Below, one piece after another: positions 8,136 through 28,680 of a stretch of 64,000 nucleotides of DNA. The notes under the pieces are model-generated. The model was given only the letters and a program-made list of their open reading frames with translations, was not told the origin of the DNA and did not search any database. Every line of letters begins with the position of its first letter. Positions within the stretch are counted from its first letter, which is position 1. The stretch covers positions 3,199,501-3,263,500 of the forward strand of contig NZ_JYNQ01000001.1 in NCBI RefSeq assembly GCF_000934685.1, in the 5' to 3' direction. The position numbers were made by a program, and so were the translations under genes. The DNA comes from Lacinutrix sp. Hel_I_90 (lineage in GTDB: Bacteria; Bacteroidota; Bacteroidia; Flavobacteriales; Flavobacteriaceae).

Positions 8136-8789
8136 ATGATAATTGAGGAAGTCACACTTTTTACGAATATAATTCAAAAGCAAAAGCAGTTTTATGAGTC
8201 GGTTTTAGGTTTCGAGATCGTAGAAGATTCTAAAGACCGGATTTCTTTTAAAACAGGAGAAAGTCATTTAGTATTTGAATATAAAAAAGAGACCAATCCA
8301 GCACATATCGCTTTTAATATTCCTGTTAAAACAATCCATACCGCTTTAAAATGGTTAAAGGAGAGAATAAAAGTGCTTTCCTACGAAGGTGAAGAAATCA
8401 CCAATTTCCATGCCTGGAACGCTAGGGCGATTTACTTTTATGATGTAGATCATAATATTTTGGAGTTTATCGCCAGAGAAAGATTAGGTATAGCAAGTGA
8501 AGCGGCGTTTACACCAGACACTATTATCTCTATAAGTGAAATGGCAATAGCAACAGACAATATAGCATCTATTTACAGCCAAATAAACAGAATAAAACCA
8601 ATTCCGATTTTCGATGGTAGTTTTGATCGTTTTTGTGCTTTAGGAAATGACGAAGGCTTATTTATAGTTATTGATAAAAATAAGAAGAAATGGTACCCTA
8701 CAATGGCGGCTGTTTTGACTTCAGATTTTATAATTAAAGGCGATTACAACTTTAGTTTTACCAACGGAGAAATTAAAGAATTGTCGTAA
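8136..8789 (+). CDS. VOC (glyoxalase/bleomycin-resistance fold) family protein
   Basis: A 217-residue cytosolic protein whose first 125 residues form a VOC module: LFTNIIQKQKQFYESVLGFE at the start, HIAFNIP for the first metal-ligand strand and DVDHNILEFIARE for the second. The remaining 90 residues look like a second, weaker half-module. VOC enzymes are metal-dependent dioxygenases, isomerases or resistance proteins, and the substrate here cannot be told. The 200 bases upstream (7935-8135) contain no gene. Confidence 0.8.
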   Translation: MIIEEVTLFTNIIQKQKQFYESVLGFEIVEDSKDRISFKTGESHLVFEYKKETNPAHIAFNIPVKTIHTALKWLKERIKVLSYEGEEITNFHAWNARAIYFYDVDHNILEFIARERLGIASEAAFTPDTIISISEMAIATDNIASIYSQINRIKPIPIFDGSFDRFCALGNDEGLFIVIDKNKKKWYPTMAAVLTSDFIIKGDYNFSFTNGEIKELS

Positions 8790-15583: not shown

Positions 15584-15793
15584 ATGACGCCGAGTTTAAG
15601 AGTTAAAATCATTGCAGTTTGTAATAAGAAAATAGCCCAAAAAGGTGAGGCCGTAGGGCTGTCTTTTTATGCTTTTTTTAAAAACAAAAATGAGAACCCA
15701 GAGTTATTAATGGAAGCTGCTACTTGGTGGATTAAAACACAGCAATTAGACCACTTTGAAAAAGCACTGAAAATTAAAAAAATGGTTGAATAG
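15584..15793 (+). CDS. Small conserved protein, DUF6500-like
   Basis: A 69-residue basic protein ([20 protein letters not shown]...) that I associate from memory with the DUF6500 group; that label was not checked. It is helical, has no signal peptide, begins 18 bases after the helicase stop, and is followed after 2 bases by the VF530-like gene. The spacing suggests an operon. Function unknown. Confidence 0.7.
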
Positions 15794-15795
15794 TT

Positions 15796-16017
15796 ATGTC
15801 GCAACCAAACAATCCCCTTCACGGTATAAAATTAGAACAAATCATTACCGATTTACAAGCACATTACGGCTGGGAATATTTGGGGTATAACATAAAGATT
15901 AAATGTTTTACTGATAATCCTTCAATAAAATCCAGTTTAAAGTTTTTACGCCGCACGCCCTGGGCGCGAAAAAAGATAGAAGATTTTTATTTAGAGTATT
16001 TAAAAAAGAATCAATAA
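15796..16017 (+). CDS. VF530-family (DUF2132) DNA-binding-like protein
   Basis: A 73-residue protein carrying the VF530 signature: [49 protein letters not shown] and [12 protein letters not shown]. The fold of the family member VF530 suggests DNA binding; a cellular role is not established. It is closely spaced with the upstream small gene and convergent with the cupin/HEAT gene (1 base apart). Confidence 0.88.
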
Positions 16018-16018
16018 A

Positions 16019-16915
16019 TTAGTTTACAAGCGTGGCACTATCAATCAGTGATTTGGCACTCATTTGTACTATTGGACTTTTATCGCATAATGCTTTTTGT
16101 AAGAGTTTCTCATCTTTATTAACATCCCATAAAACTTCATAACTCTTAGCGCGAACATGGGGCATATTATGAGAAGTGGCGATTTGCTCTAATAAACGTT
16201 CTGTTTTTGTATCTCCAAGTCTTTTAGCAAGGTCTAGTAAAAACAGACGGCCTGTCCCAACGCCGGGAGCGATACTGGTGATCGTTTTATTTTGAAGATC
16301 GAAATGAAATTGTTCCTTCTCTAAAAATGAATTACCCCGTGGCATGATATTTAGTGATATAGAGTAATCTTCAGGAGGAATCTGTGTATGAATATCTTTT
16401 GAAGCTCTGTAATACATAACCTTTCCTTTTGGAAGTGATGTGCGTTCCAGATAATTTAATTCAACCTTTTCACCAACATAACCAATGACCTTATCGTAGT
16501 CATATTCCCAAATTTCGGTTTCATAGCCTTTACCATGACATCCAACGGTAATAAATGGAAAGTTGTGATCGTGTGCTCGAACGTGATGGTATAACTCTTT
16601 TTGCCAAATATTAACGTCTTTATGTTCTGAAATTGCGGGCCAGGTATTAATACGCACATAAAAAAGCGTATCAATATGTAAAAGCGTAGTTTGTATGCCA
16701 TAGGCATTGCTGCGTTGAAAGGTTGCCATATCTTGAAGTTGATTATTAATCTGATCAGAAAGAAACTGGCCGTTGTTCGAGAGCATTTTAAGATGCTTAG
16801 CGCATTCCAAAAGCGAGTCATTGTCGTTTTTTTTAATAGCTTCTTTTGAAAATGAAATAAATTCTTCAAAAGAAATAGACGCTTTTATATTGGGTTGATT
16901 TATGGTAATAGCCAT
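16019..16915 (-). CDS. Cupin-like plus HEAT-repeat protein (candidate peptide-modifying enzyme)
   Basis: I do not recognise a named family. The 298 residues begin with helices (about 15-70). A cupin-like core follows with AHDHNFPF (His115 and His117), GCHGKGYETEIWEYD (Glu132/134) and a second motif with DIHTQIPPED (His176). This HxH...E...H set would bind a metal as in cupin dioxygenases. A C-terminal stretch (about 224-292) looks like one or two HEAT-type helical repeats (RAKSYEVLWDV, VQMSAKSL). It begins 2 bases after its paralogue, and a 41-residue peptide gene lies just upstream. A role in oxidising that peptide is inference. Confidence 0.6.
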   Translation of the reverse strand: MAITINQPNIKASISFEEFISFSKEAIKKNDNDSLLECAKHLKMLSNNGQFLSDQINNQLQDMATFQRSNAYGIQTTLLHIDTLFYVRINTWPAISEHKDVNIWQKELYHHVRAHDHNFPFITVGCHGKGYETEIWEYDYDKVIGYVGEKVELNYLERTSLPKGKVMYYRASKDIHTQIPPEDYSISLNIMPRGNSFLEKEQFHFDLQNKTITSIAPGVGTGRLFLLDLAKRLGDTKTERLLEQIATSHNMPHVRAKSYEVLWDVNKDEKLLQKALCDKSPIVQMSAKSLIDSATLVN

Positions 16916-16917
16916 GA

Positions 16918-17745
16918 TTAATCGATGTTTAATGTTGAAATTTGATGTAGCCCGTTTTTGACAGATTCTACAATTTCTGGATGCGTGTCGTGTTCCAGTA
17001 GATGCAGGGCTTCAATGCCTTTATTAAAATTTATAGTCATAATGGCGCTCGCCGCTGCCCATCTCACATTATGGTGTGAATTATTTAGAAGATGAAATAA
17101 ATTAGGAAGAGAAGAAATATGACCAAGCGCTCCTAGTAGTTTACAGGTATGCTCTAGCCTAGCAGATTGTTTTGAGTTGCTTACTAGCCTCAAAGGATGC
17201 AATGTTTTCGCATCGTATTCCCAACCGTACGACGAGGTGTTCTTACAAGAAAAAGAAAGTATCATCACATCATCATTAAGCGCCCCTTGGTATGAAAAAA
17301 CCGATTCATATTTTTTTATCATTAAAGGGGTATTCTTGGTTAGAACCTTTTTTGTTTCTACTGGTATAAGTCTTTTGCTTTTATCCAGAATATTTTCTGG
17401 ATAGGGATTGATTTGTTTATAGCTATTATAAAGTATATCTCCAGTTATTGGTACTATGATTTTATCGAAAGAATAGGAGTTTATGTATTTTGTTTGGTGC
17501 TCTTTCTTCATTTTAATAATCGTTAAACTAAAGGCATTAGTATTTAAAATATGCCAATGATTTAATGAAGCGTGAGTTGGATAATAATTAGGATCTAGAT
17601 TTAATTTAGATAACGAATCGTGTATTAAGTCTTCTAAATAAGATGTTTTTAACAGCGCTTTTAAGTGTTGCATGCCTAATACCTCTAGATCACAGTCTTT
17701 AAGGCCTTCAACAGCTTTATAAAATTTTTCAAGATACGTATTCAT
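16918..17745 (-). CDS. HEAT-repeat protein with degenerate cupin-like core (paralogue)
   Basis: Unrecognised 275-residue protein that shares the layout of the next gene: N-terminal helices, a beta-rich middle (about 60-180) and HEAT-like repeats at the C-terminus (HHNVRWAAASAIMTI, HPEIVESVKNGL). The beta-rich part lacks the HxH...E...H ligand set of its neighbour, so it is probably a non-catalytic partner, perhaps for binding a substrate peptide. It starts 62 bases after the stop of the small peptide gene, with a terminator hairpin between them. Shared transcription through a leaky terminator is inferred. Confidence 0.55.
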   Translation of the reverse strand: MNTYLEKFYKAVEGLKDCDLEVLGMQHLKALLKTSYLEDLIHDSLSKLNLDPNYYPTHASLNHWHILNTNAFSLTIIKMKKEHQTKYINSYSFDKIIVPITGDILYNSYKQINPYPENILDKSKRLIPVETKKVLTKNTPLMIKKYESVFSYQGALNDDVMILSFSCKNTSSYGWEYDAKTLHPLRLVSNSKQSARLEHTCKLLGALGHISSLPNLFHLLNNSHHNVRWAAASAIMTINFNKGIEALHLLEHDTHPEIVESVKNGLHQISTLNID

Positions 17746-17758
17746 AATTATGGAAATT

Positions 17759-17796
17759 AAAAAAGCCTTTCAAATAGCTGTTATTTGAAAGGCTTT
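17759..17796 (-). terminator. Intrinsic terminator hairpin between peptide gene and cupin/HEAT genes
   Basis: Read on the minus strand: AAAGCCTTTCAAATAAC, a short loop, GTTATTTGAAAGGCTTT-type arm, then a run of T residues. The stem is about 15 bp. Its position after a small peptide gene and before large genes is the arrangement that lets the peptide be made in excess over the enzymes. Confidence 0.8.
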
Positions 17797-17806
17797 AATG
17801 TGTTGA

Positions 17807-17932
17807 TTAAAGAACTAACCCTAAAAGTAAAGTTGTTAAATCGATGATGGACATAGATGAGCTTTCTGCAGACACTTGCGGGCTTACAGGATTTCTTAAT
17901 TCATCTAACTGAAATTTGTGTTCGTTTTGCAT
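17807..17932 (-). CDS. 41-residue peptide with leader-like N-terminus (candidate RiPP-type precursor)
   Basis: Start ATG at 17930-17932, stop TAA at 17807-17809. The N-terminal half is polar and charged (KFQLDELRNPVSPQV), then a Ser-rich hinge (SAESSSMS), and the C-terminus is hydrophobic (IIDLTTLLLGLVL) with no Cys. This two-part layout resembles leader plus core of ribosomally made, modified peptides, with FxLDELRNP as the likely recognition stretch. It is the first gene of a set with a terminator hairpin and two cupin/HEAT proteins. It is too short for default gene finders. Alternative: a small membrane-active or toxin-like peptide, or a chance ORF. Confidence 0.6.
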   Translation of the reverse strand: MQNEHKFQLDELRNPVSPQVSAESSSMSIIDLTTLLLGLVL

Positions 17933-18206
17933 TTTACTGTATTTTAACGATTATTAATACTGTAAATGTATGGGCAAAACGAAGGTTAAAAAAGTTAAAG
18001 CACCCGTTTTTTATAAAACAAGGAGGACTTGTTGTGTTTTAAGTGTCTGAAAAACAATTAGTTGTTAAAACTCACGTTGTTTATAGCCTTTGTTCTTAAT
18101 AAGTCGTTTTCTATGTAGTTTTAACTGTTAGAAACTAAATGAACACGGCTTTTACTTTATTCGGATAGGAGATGATAACGCTACTCCATGTATTTAAATA
18201 CAGGTC

Positions 18207-28512: not shown

Positions 28513-28546
28513 TAAAAAAAAGGCTTGTCGTGAATGACAAGCCTTT
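28513..28546 (-). terminator. trp operon attenuator (leader terminator)
   Basis: On the minus strand, AAGGCTTGTC, loop ATTCAC, then GACAAGCCTT followed by a run of T, a strong intrinsic terminator placed between the trp leader peptide and trpE. The loop/3'-arm segment TTCACGA is the exact complement of TCGTGAA at the end of the leader ORF (about 28580-28586), which could form an antiterminator. This is the expected attenuation architecture. Confidence 0.88.
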
Positions 28547-28578
28547 TGTATGTTAATTAAATATACGTAGGAGTTTGT

Positions 28579-28635
28579 TCACGAATTGTTTTTCCGAGAA
28601 TTCCACCACCAGGTATGATTTAAGTTTGTGTTCAT
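28579..28635 (-). CDS. trpL: trp operon leader peptide, 18 aa, with three consecutive Trp codons
   Basis: A short ORF with ATG at 28635 and TGA at 28579-28581, encoding 18 residues. Codons 9-11 are TGG-TGG-TGG (complement of 28603-28611). A stretch of tandem Trp codons just upstream of a terminator hairpin and trpE is the signature of ribosome-mediated attenuation: ribosome stalling at low Trp-tRNA would favour antitermination. The short distance from the predicted start site, about nine bases, suggests a near-leaderless mRNA. The ORF is only recognisable by its position and Trp run, which is strong here. Confidence 0.85.
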   Translation of the reverse strand: MNTNLNHTWWWNSRKNNS

Positions 28636-28649
28636 AATTTTTTACATTC

Positions 28650-28680
28650 CAAAGATAGTAATGAAATTTTATTTGGCAAA
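28650..28680 (-). promoter_or_regulatory. trp operon promoter (TTTG-N19-TATCTTTG)
   Basis: On the minus strand, TTTG at 28680-28677, then a 19-base spacer, then TATCTTTG at 28657-28650. This is an exact match to the Bacteroidota sigma-A promoter form (TTTG, 19-21 bases, TAnnTTTG). It lies just upstream of the trp leader ORF, and the plus-strand redoxin gene at 28746 starts divergently about 65 bases away. Confidence 0.85.

Follow-up and report, generated by a model that had tools for sequence, protein, structure and literature searches.

A short peptide gene upstream of two paralogous cupin/HEAT proteins in Lacinutrix sp. Hel_I_90: a candidate peptide-modification system

Results

The window analyzed here is a stretch of 64,000 nucleotides from the flavobacterium Lacinutrix sp. 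Hel_I_90 (assembly GCF_000934685.1, contig NZ_JYNQ01000001.1, forward-strand positions 3,199,501 to 3,263,500), and all coordinates for it are counted from its first nucleotide. On its minus strand lies a group of three genes that an earlier reading of the sequence, hereafter the original prediction, had singled out as a possible peptide-modification cassette. A check of the open reading frames (ORFs) gave the transcription order as a 41-residue precursor-like peptide (MQNEHKFQLDELRNPVSPQVSAESSSMSIIDLTTLLLGLVL; 17807–17932), a hairpin followed by a U-run (17762–17796), a protein of 275 residues, here called B (16918–17745), and a protein of 298 residues, here called A (16019–16915); each element was found where it had been placed. 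Two nucleotides separate the stop codon of B from the start of A. The peptide carries the leader motif KFQLDELRNPV (17885–17917, minus strand), which has the form L-x-x-L-x-x-x-V, and it contains no cysteine. A TACATTT-like sequence, which resembles the Bacteroidota −7 element, lies 5′ of the peptide at 17933–17975 and is also present in two related loci (L011 and L013; related loci are given L numbers throughout).

A and B are paralogues, as had been proposed: hhalign aligns them with an E value of 3.3e-19 over 272 columns, and the AlphaFold model of each has a cupin barrel flanked by N-terminal helices on one side and C-terminal HEAT helices on the other. The model of A has a predicted local distance difference test score (pLDDT) of 93.3 and a predicted template modeling score of 0.86, with the HEAT helices at residues 219–297; that of B (pLDDT 92.6) places the barrel at about 63–189 and the HEAT helices at 192–271. 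Consistent with the latter, B matches the Pfam HEAT_2 model with an E value of 3.7e-6 at 27.6 bits, the cut-off being 27.7. When the predicted models were submitted to Foldseek, the top match of A was mercaptosuccinate dioxygenase (E 1.2e-7, target-normalized template modeling score (TM-score) 0.65) and that of B a Pseudomonas thiol dioxygenase (E 4.0e-7, TM-score by target 0.55). These models suggest that A and B are cupins of a thiol-dioxygenase-like fold. At the sequence level, B shows a weak likeness to cysteine dioxygenase (CDO; hhalign E 8.5e-5, probability 60). The Pfam cupin and CDO_I models matched none of 83 A members, nor did any relevant NCBIfam model. More broadly, Pfam, NCBIfam, PADLOC, and PHROGs contain no model that fits A or the peptides tested. 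Sequence searches of the PDB returned mainly designed HEAT repeats and otherwise nothing relevant.

The two paralogues differ in their predicted metal site. In A, residues His115, His117, His176, Gln178, Arg88, and Trp92 are present in 85 of 85 rows; the first part of the site, H115-D116-H117, is encoded at 16565–16573 and the second, H176-T177-Q178, which supplies the third histidine and the invariant glutamine, at 16382–16390 (both minus strand). The alignment of B, 45 rows picked by hand from the 85 pairs, retains the HxH motif in only 3 rows, and its invariant residues (Arg228, Trp229, and Asp253) all fall in the HEAT part. The cupin metal site that had been anticipated for the proposed modifying protein is thus predicted as a three-histidine site in A, from its modeled structure and invariant histidines, and has been lost in B. 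Thiol dioxygenases also have a Ser-His-Tyr triad. The corresponding positions in A are Ser187, Asn189, and Met191, and since position 189 is asparagine in 83 of 85 rows and histidine in none, the triad is absent from A.

The short ORF behaves as a gene. Between the window and L012, the peptide genes differ at 30 nucleotides, 20 of them at codon position 3, with 16 synonymous and 6 changed codons; the corresponding values are 22 differences, 15 at position 3, 11 synonymous, and 6 changed codons for L011, and 25, 18, 13, and 6 for L013. L011 and L013 differ from each other at 5 nucleotides, all synonymous. The comparisons of L012 with L011 (8 of 16 differences at position 3; 7 synonymous, 6 changed codons) and with L013 (5 of 13; 5 synonymous, 6 changed codons) are less clear. 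From these sequence comparisons, the peptide is evolving as a coding gene under purifying selection, and what is conserved is a protein rather than DNA alone. On this codon pattern, the identification of the ORF as a pure regulatory leader was rejected.

The hairpin between the peptide and B has a 15-bp stem and, with its U-run, resembles an intrinsic terminator. It folds at −18.0 kcal/mol (z −5.3), a value equaled by none of 200 shuffled sequences, and it recurs with compensatory stem changes in all three close relatives (L011, L012, and L013; −16.3 to −22.8 kcal/mol). Among these four sequences, a clear T-run follows the hairpin in the window and L012 only. The gap between the peptide and B is 3 nucleotides in L015 and 22 in L024, which leaves no room for a terminator. 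The hairpin of the original prediction is thus confirmed in the window, but because of these short gaps and the conservation in close relatives only, it is a local feature that does not characterize the system as a whole. It is consistent with a partial terminator or an mRNA-stabilizing element.

To describe the reach of the pair, relatives of A were collected from one species-level genome set, which gave 410 loci, and the best 80 were fetched and analyzed. By record title, 11 of these 80 come from Bacteroidota; Acidobacteriota, Actinomycetota, and Planctomycetota contribute one each, and the remainder belong to Pseudomonadota, chiefly to Sphingomonadales. The addition of two plasmid records gives a set of 85 A genes in 82 loci; L001–L004, L007, L009, and L010 (duplicates of the window, L005, L006, L012, and L023), the weak match L008, the B-like stretch of L087 in the A set, A stretches of under 200 residues, and B stretches of under 150 residues had been dropped before counting, and the alignment of A (A6) has 83 rows, including the A of the window. 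B lies directly 5′ of A for 81 of the 85 A genes. An automatic rule had scored 8 as lacking B, but inspection found it in L027, L045 (second pair), L050, and L068, which gives the count of 81; of the other four, L043 and L016 keep a C-terminal fragment of B, and L077 and L082 begin at a contig end. An apparent B-A fusion in L068 was discarded, as the B of that locus has its own ORF in a different frame. Pairs with a peptide 5′ occur in loci of Bacteroidota, Pseudomonadota, Acidobacteriota, Actinomycetota, and Planctomycetota.

Closer to the window, the distribution is patchy. A is present in 3 of 299 family genomes, its own included, and B was not found in the other 59 genomes of a 60-relative set, 12 of the same genus among them. 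A window-type peptide is convincing in 2 of the 299 genomes, both A-bearing; the peptide of the second is 85% identical to that of the window. The family search missed the peptide of the remaining A-bearing genome; the third match of this search (E 0.026) falls within a frame of 582 codons. Phages yielded no relatives of the Alteromonas A protein, and a pattern scan did not find the A of the window in viral contigs. A defense or phage origin was set aside, as A and the peptide have no match in PADLOC or PHROGs and B has only weak HEAT matches in PADLOC.

Upstream of B in most loci, as the original prediction required of homologous pairs, are short ORFs in which a common leader, L-x-x-L-x-x-x-V, is followed by a Val/Ile-rich tail. 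Examples of the leader are LDELRNPV (window), LNELETPV, LNDLEVNV, LDNLENSV, LPGLDTPV, LPELETSV, and LPDLNTLTG. Val and Ile make up 22% of the cores and 9% of short ORFs generally; the cores vary between clades, whereas the leader is common to several phyla. A first motif was built from 11 leaders (nine from Bacteroidota including the window, one from Maricaulis, and one from Acidobacteria) and applied to L025–L090, none of which had been used in training. Thirty-seven short ORFs scored at least 8, and 12 of these (11 loci) stood just 5′ of B on the same strand, against a background in which 225 of 10109 short ORFs do so (Mann-Whitney p 2e-12, a value that is too small because many of L025–L090 are related and not independent). 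A broader motif was trained on 23 leaders from the same loci and applied to the 78 of 85 A genes with enough upstream DNA. Of the 78 upstream windows, 49 scored at least 15 and 62 at least 8, as compared with 1 and 50, respectively, of 1184 control windows; the 62 include chance matches, as the one in L016 is probably spurious and the top match in L036 (9.3) differs from the peptide recognized there by eye (7.3). As this count is partly circular, the first motif on L025–L090 serves as the independent test.

Some loci carry more than one peptide. Two or three different peptides precede B in L005, L026, L029, and L030, and the two B-A pairs found on a single Mucilaginibacter contig (L014 and L020) each have a different peptide. 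Tandem B-A modules in L045, L054, and L073 likewise have different peptides, with an ABC gene after the second pair. The Dyella peptides of L031 and L042 have a long core of alternating Val, Gly, and Ala (AVAIGVAVGVGVAVGLGVGIAV in L031). A cysteine follows the leader motif in only 16 of the 57 top candidates scoring at least 9.

In the window, A is followed by convergent genes on the opposite strand for a VF530 DNA-binding protein and a DUF6500 protein (15584–16017; Pfam) and by a convergent DEAD-box helicase gene. A Pfam scan of 14 neighboring ORFs between 10675 and 23763, shorter ORFs left out, revealed no enzyme known from ribosomally synthesized and post-translationally modified peptide (RiPP) pathways, no peptidase, and no exporter. 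With A, B, and the peptide included, the 17 ORFs scanned contain no class-defining lanthipeptide, YcaO, radical SAM, or graspetide enzyme and no MNIO, in agreement with the earlier reading. Farther away, a Bacteroidete trp operon leader RNA (RF01692) was detected at 28536–28655 with 60.7 bits.

Across the 82 loci, 15 have a same-strand ABC-transporter ATPase in the interval from −4.0 to +4.5 kb relative to A, and few exporters were found near Sphingomonadales pairs. The ABC gene of L014 has a C39 peptidase domain; beside it and the B-A peptide is a 60-residue peptide (8563–8745) with a VLGG motif and a Cys-rich tail. The C39-ABC gene may belong to this second, GG-type peptide, as if two peptide systems were mixed. 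Two gene families, fam3 and fam9, occur within 8 kb of the pair in 14 and 10 loci; we take them to be argH- and lysA-like and housekeeping-like. Genes resembling ECF sigma factors (fam30) lie near the pair in 4 loci, and no other receptor or regulator family recurs. An undescribed membrane protein of about 330 residues (fam29) directly follows A in L014 (10953–11990), L015 (4316–5347), L016 (10846–11844), and L053 (10873–11727); the copies of L014 and L053 have no Pfam match, and genes resembling fam29 also follow A in L019 and L087.

Discussion

The arrangement at this locus shares basic features with RiPP systems: a precursor gene is linked to the A-B pair, and its leader is conserved while its core is more variable. 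We consider it fairly probable that the peptide, B, and A form a RiPP-type system, undescribed in the model libraries and literature searched, in which B holds the leader and A oxidizes the core. Layout and conservation support this interpretation, and the role of the peptide as substrate and the chemistry are what we infer from sequence. The 41-residue peptide would be the precursor. Its L-x-x-L-x-x-x-V leader would be held by the HEAT helices and pseudo-cupin of B, perhaps also by the HEAT part of A, and the hydrophobic, Val/Ile-rich C-terminal core would thereby be presented to A. As a mononuclear-metal, three-histidine cupin, A would probably use Fe(II) for an O2-dependent oxidation of a core residue. 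Because the window peptide lacks cysteine, the reaction here would not be thiol dioxygenation of the peptide, and the scarcity of cysteine after the leader among the candidates argues against such a reaction in general. Our guess is that an aliphatic side chain is hydroxylated or desaturated. A leader peptidase or exporter within the cluster is not obligatory for RiPPs. With no exporter found near the window genes, export and leader removal, if they occur, would depend on genes elsewhere.

Several observations weigh against this interpretation. The fold matches are modest in TM-score (0.65 for A and 0.55 for B), JmjC-type hydroxylases also appear in the Foldseek list of A with lower TM-scores, and the hhalign comparison of A with bacterial CDO is not significant (probability 0.3, E 0.2). 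The broad motif scores below 8 in 16 of 78 upstream windows. In 9 of these 16, a peptide was recognized by eye (L005, L042, L070, L078, L088, L090, and the first pairs of L045, L054, and L073), those of L042, L070, and the first pair of L073 only when reading from stop to stop, as rules on start and length had hidden them; none was recognized by eye in L006, L022, L027, L028, and L032. In L079 and L081, from two Legionella species, all that is seen is a different, shared small ORF on the strand opposite the B-A pair (minus in both; about +1641 from A in L079; 8824–8991 in L081), which ends GFGCDD or GFGCLDS and is possibly an alternative type of substrate. The third A-bearing family genome, whose A is 39% identical, has a peptide that resembles that of the window in its leader only (MKQKIRLNELETPV...). 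In Erythrobacteraceae, the peptide is conserved along its entire length, a sequence pattern that suits a fixed partner or a signal no less than it does a natural product of variable sequence. Finally, no leader peptidase or exporter was seen among the 17 window ORFs scanned, and a same-strand ABC ATPase was not found within the interval from −4.0 to +4.5 kb in 67 of 82 loci, 15 of the 82 lacking that full stretch.

The main rival to the peptide as substrate is the peptide as a small third subunit, its leader docking on B or A and its tail anchoring in the membrane a cupin complex that would act on some small molecule. The hydrophobic tails of most peptides, the end-to-end conservation in Erythrobacteraceae, and the many loci with no ABC ATPase detected nearby would all be expected of such a subunit. 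Two or three divergent peptides per operon would not be, nor would the charges, prolines, and GG or Cys motifs of many tails, which are unlike a plain anchor, or the exporters near a minority of loci, and we regard this explanation as unlikely. The pair might also make a modified signaling or regulatory peptide whose place of action is the cell interior or the membrane, as opposed to an antibiotic-like product for export. Such a role would suit window genes with no adjoining exporter, the few exporters found near Sphingomonadales pairs, and the recurrence of the housekeeping-like fam3 and fam9, but apart from the ECF-sigma-like genes, no receptor or regulator family recurs nearby, and exporters do occur in 15 of 82 loci; we rate it as rather improbable.

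Two further explanations have little in their favor. That the small ORF is an attenuator-like regulatory leader, with a functional hairpin and an irrelevant peptide product, would account for the compensatory changes in the hairpin of the window and its three close relatives, and it is very hard to reconcile with amino acids that are conserved while third positions change, a leader common to several phyla, multiple peptides per operon, and the loci L015 and L024, where a hairpin has no space. A toxin-antitoxin-like arrangement, in which A and B would act as enzyme or chaperone to neutralize a hydrophobic peptide toxin, draws on the shortness and hydrophobicity of the peptide and on the scattered occurrence of A and B (3 of 299 family genomes have A, and none of the 12 other genomes of the genus has B). 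We judge it highly improbable, given that PADLOC yields weak HEAT matches only and that the invariant histidine site of A would imply catalysis.

Returning to the proposed RiPP-type system, its components can be compared with known ones. A has its predicted fold and three histidines in common with thiol dioxygenases (cysteine, 3-mercaptopropionate, and mercaptosuccinate dioxygenases and plant cysteine oxidases), and its SISLNIM segment aligns to SLTLHLY of bacterial CDO, in an hhalign alignment that is not significant. It departs from these enzymes in its lack of a CDO_I match, its added N-terminal helices and C-terminal HEAT helices, and its paralogous partner, as well as in the absence of cysteine from the window peptide. 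Cupin-type enzymes encoded beside precursor genes have been described before: PbsQ and BpmG are cupin/JmjC hydroxylases of biphenomycin-like RiPP pathways, and PbsQ, a JmjC-related cupin, hydroxylates Orn (PMC12257519). As described there, the PbsQ pathway also has an MNIO, an arginase, and a B12 radical SAM enzyme, whereas in the window the cupin pair is the sole candidate enzyme. A second report describes cupin-4 proteins with NHLP precursors in sponge metagenomes (PMC9426513). The HEAT part of B-type proteins weakly matches the cyanobacterial HEAT-repeat proteins CpcE, CpcF, and NblB (best E 4.5e-4), with 13–20 bits against cut-offs of 220–330. Systems of MNIO (DUF692) and a partner resemble the proposed A-B arrangement in that a metal oxidase and a dedicated partner act on a short precursor. 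The MNIO fold is not a cupin, and in the A-B pair the partner is a paralogue of the enzyme.

Overall, the original prediction is partly supported. Its author knew of no such family, and no library model or description of the peptide-B-A system was found, the latter within those parts of the open-licence PubMed Central literature that were accessible; the reach across phyla and the metal-less cupin of B had not been seen at that stage. To a bolder proposal we give slightly less than even weight: the loci together would make up a new, widespread RiPP class in Bacteroidota, Sphingomonadales, and other groups, defined by a heterodimer in which an active cupin is paired with an inactive one. Both would have the thiol-dioxygenase-like fold and HEAT tails for leader binding, and the pair would be a thiol-dioxygenase scaffold repurposed, with precursor peptides of its own, to oxidize aliphatic residues of hydrophobic cores without a thiol. 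RiPP genome mining relies on known enzymes and would miss a class whose enzyme pair is not listed. One species-level genome set has 410 loci with relatives of A, Sphingomonadales account for many of the best 80 that were analyzed, and neither Pfam nor NCBIfam has a model for A. If A does modify the peptides, the thiol-dioxygenase fold would have been put to a new use, in a three-gene system simple to reconstitute.
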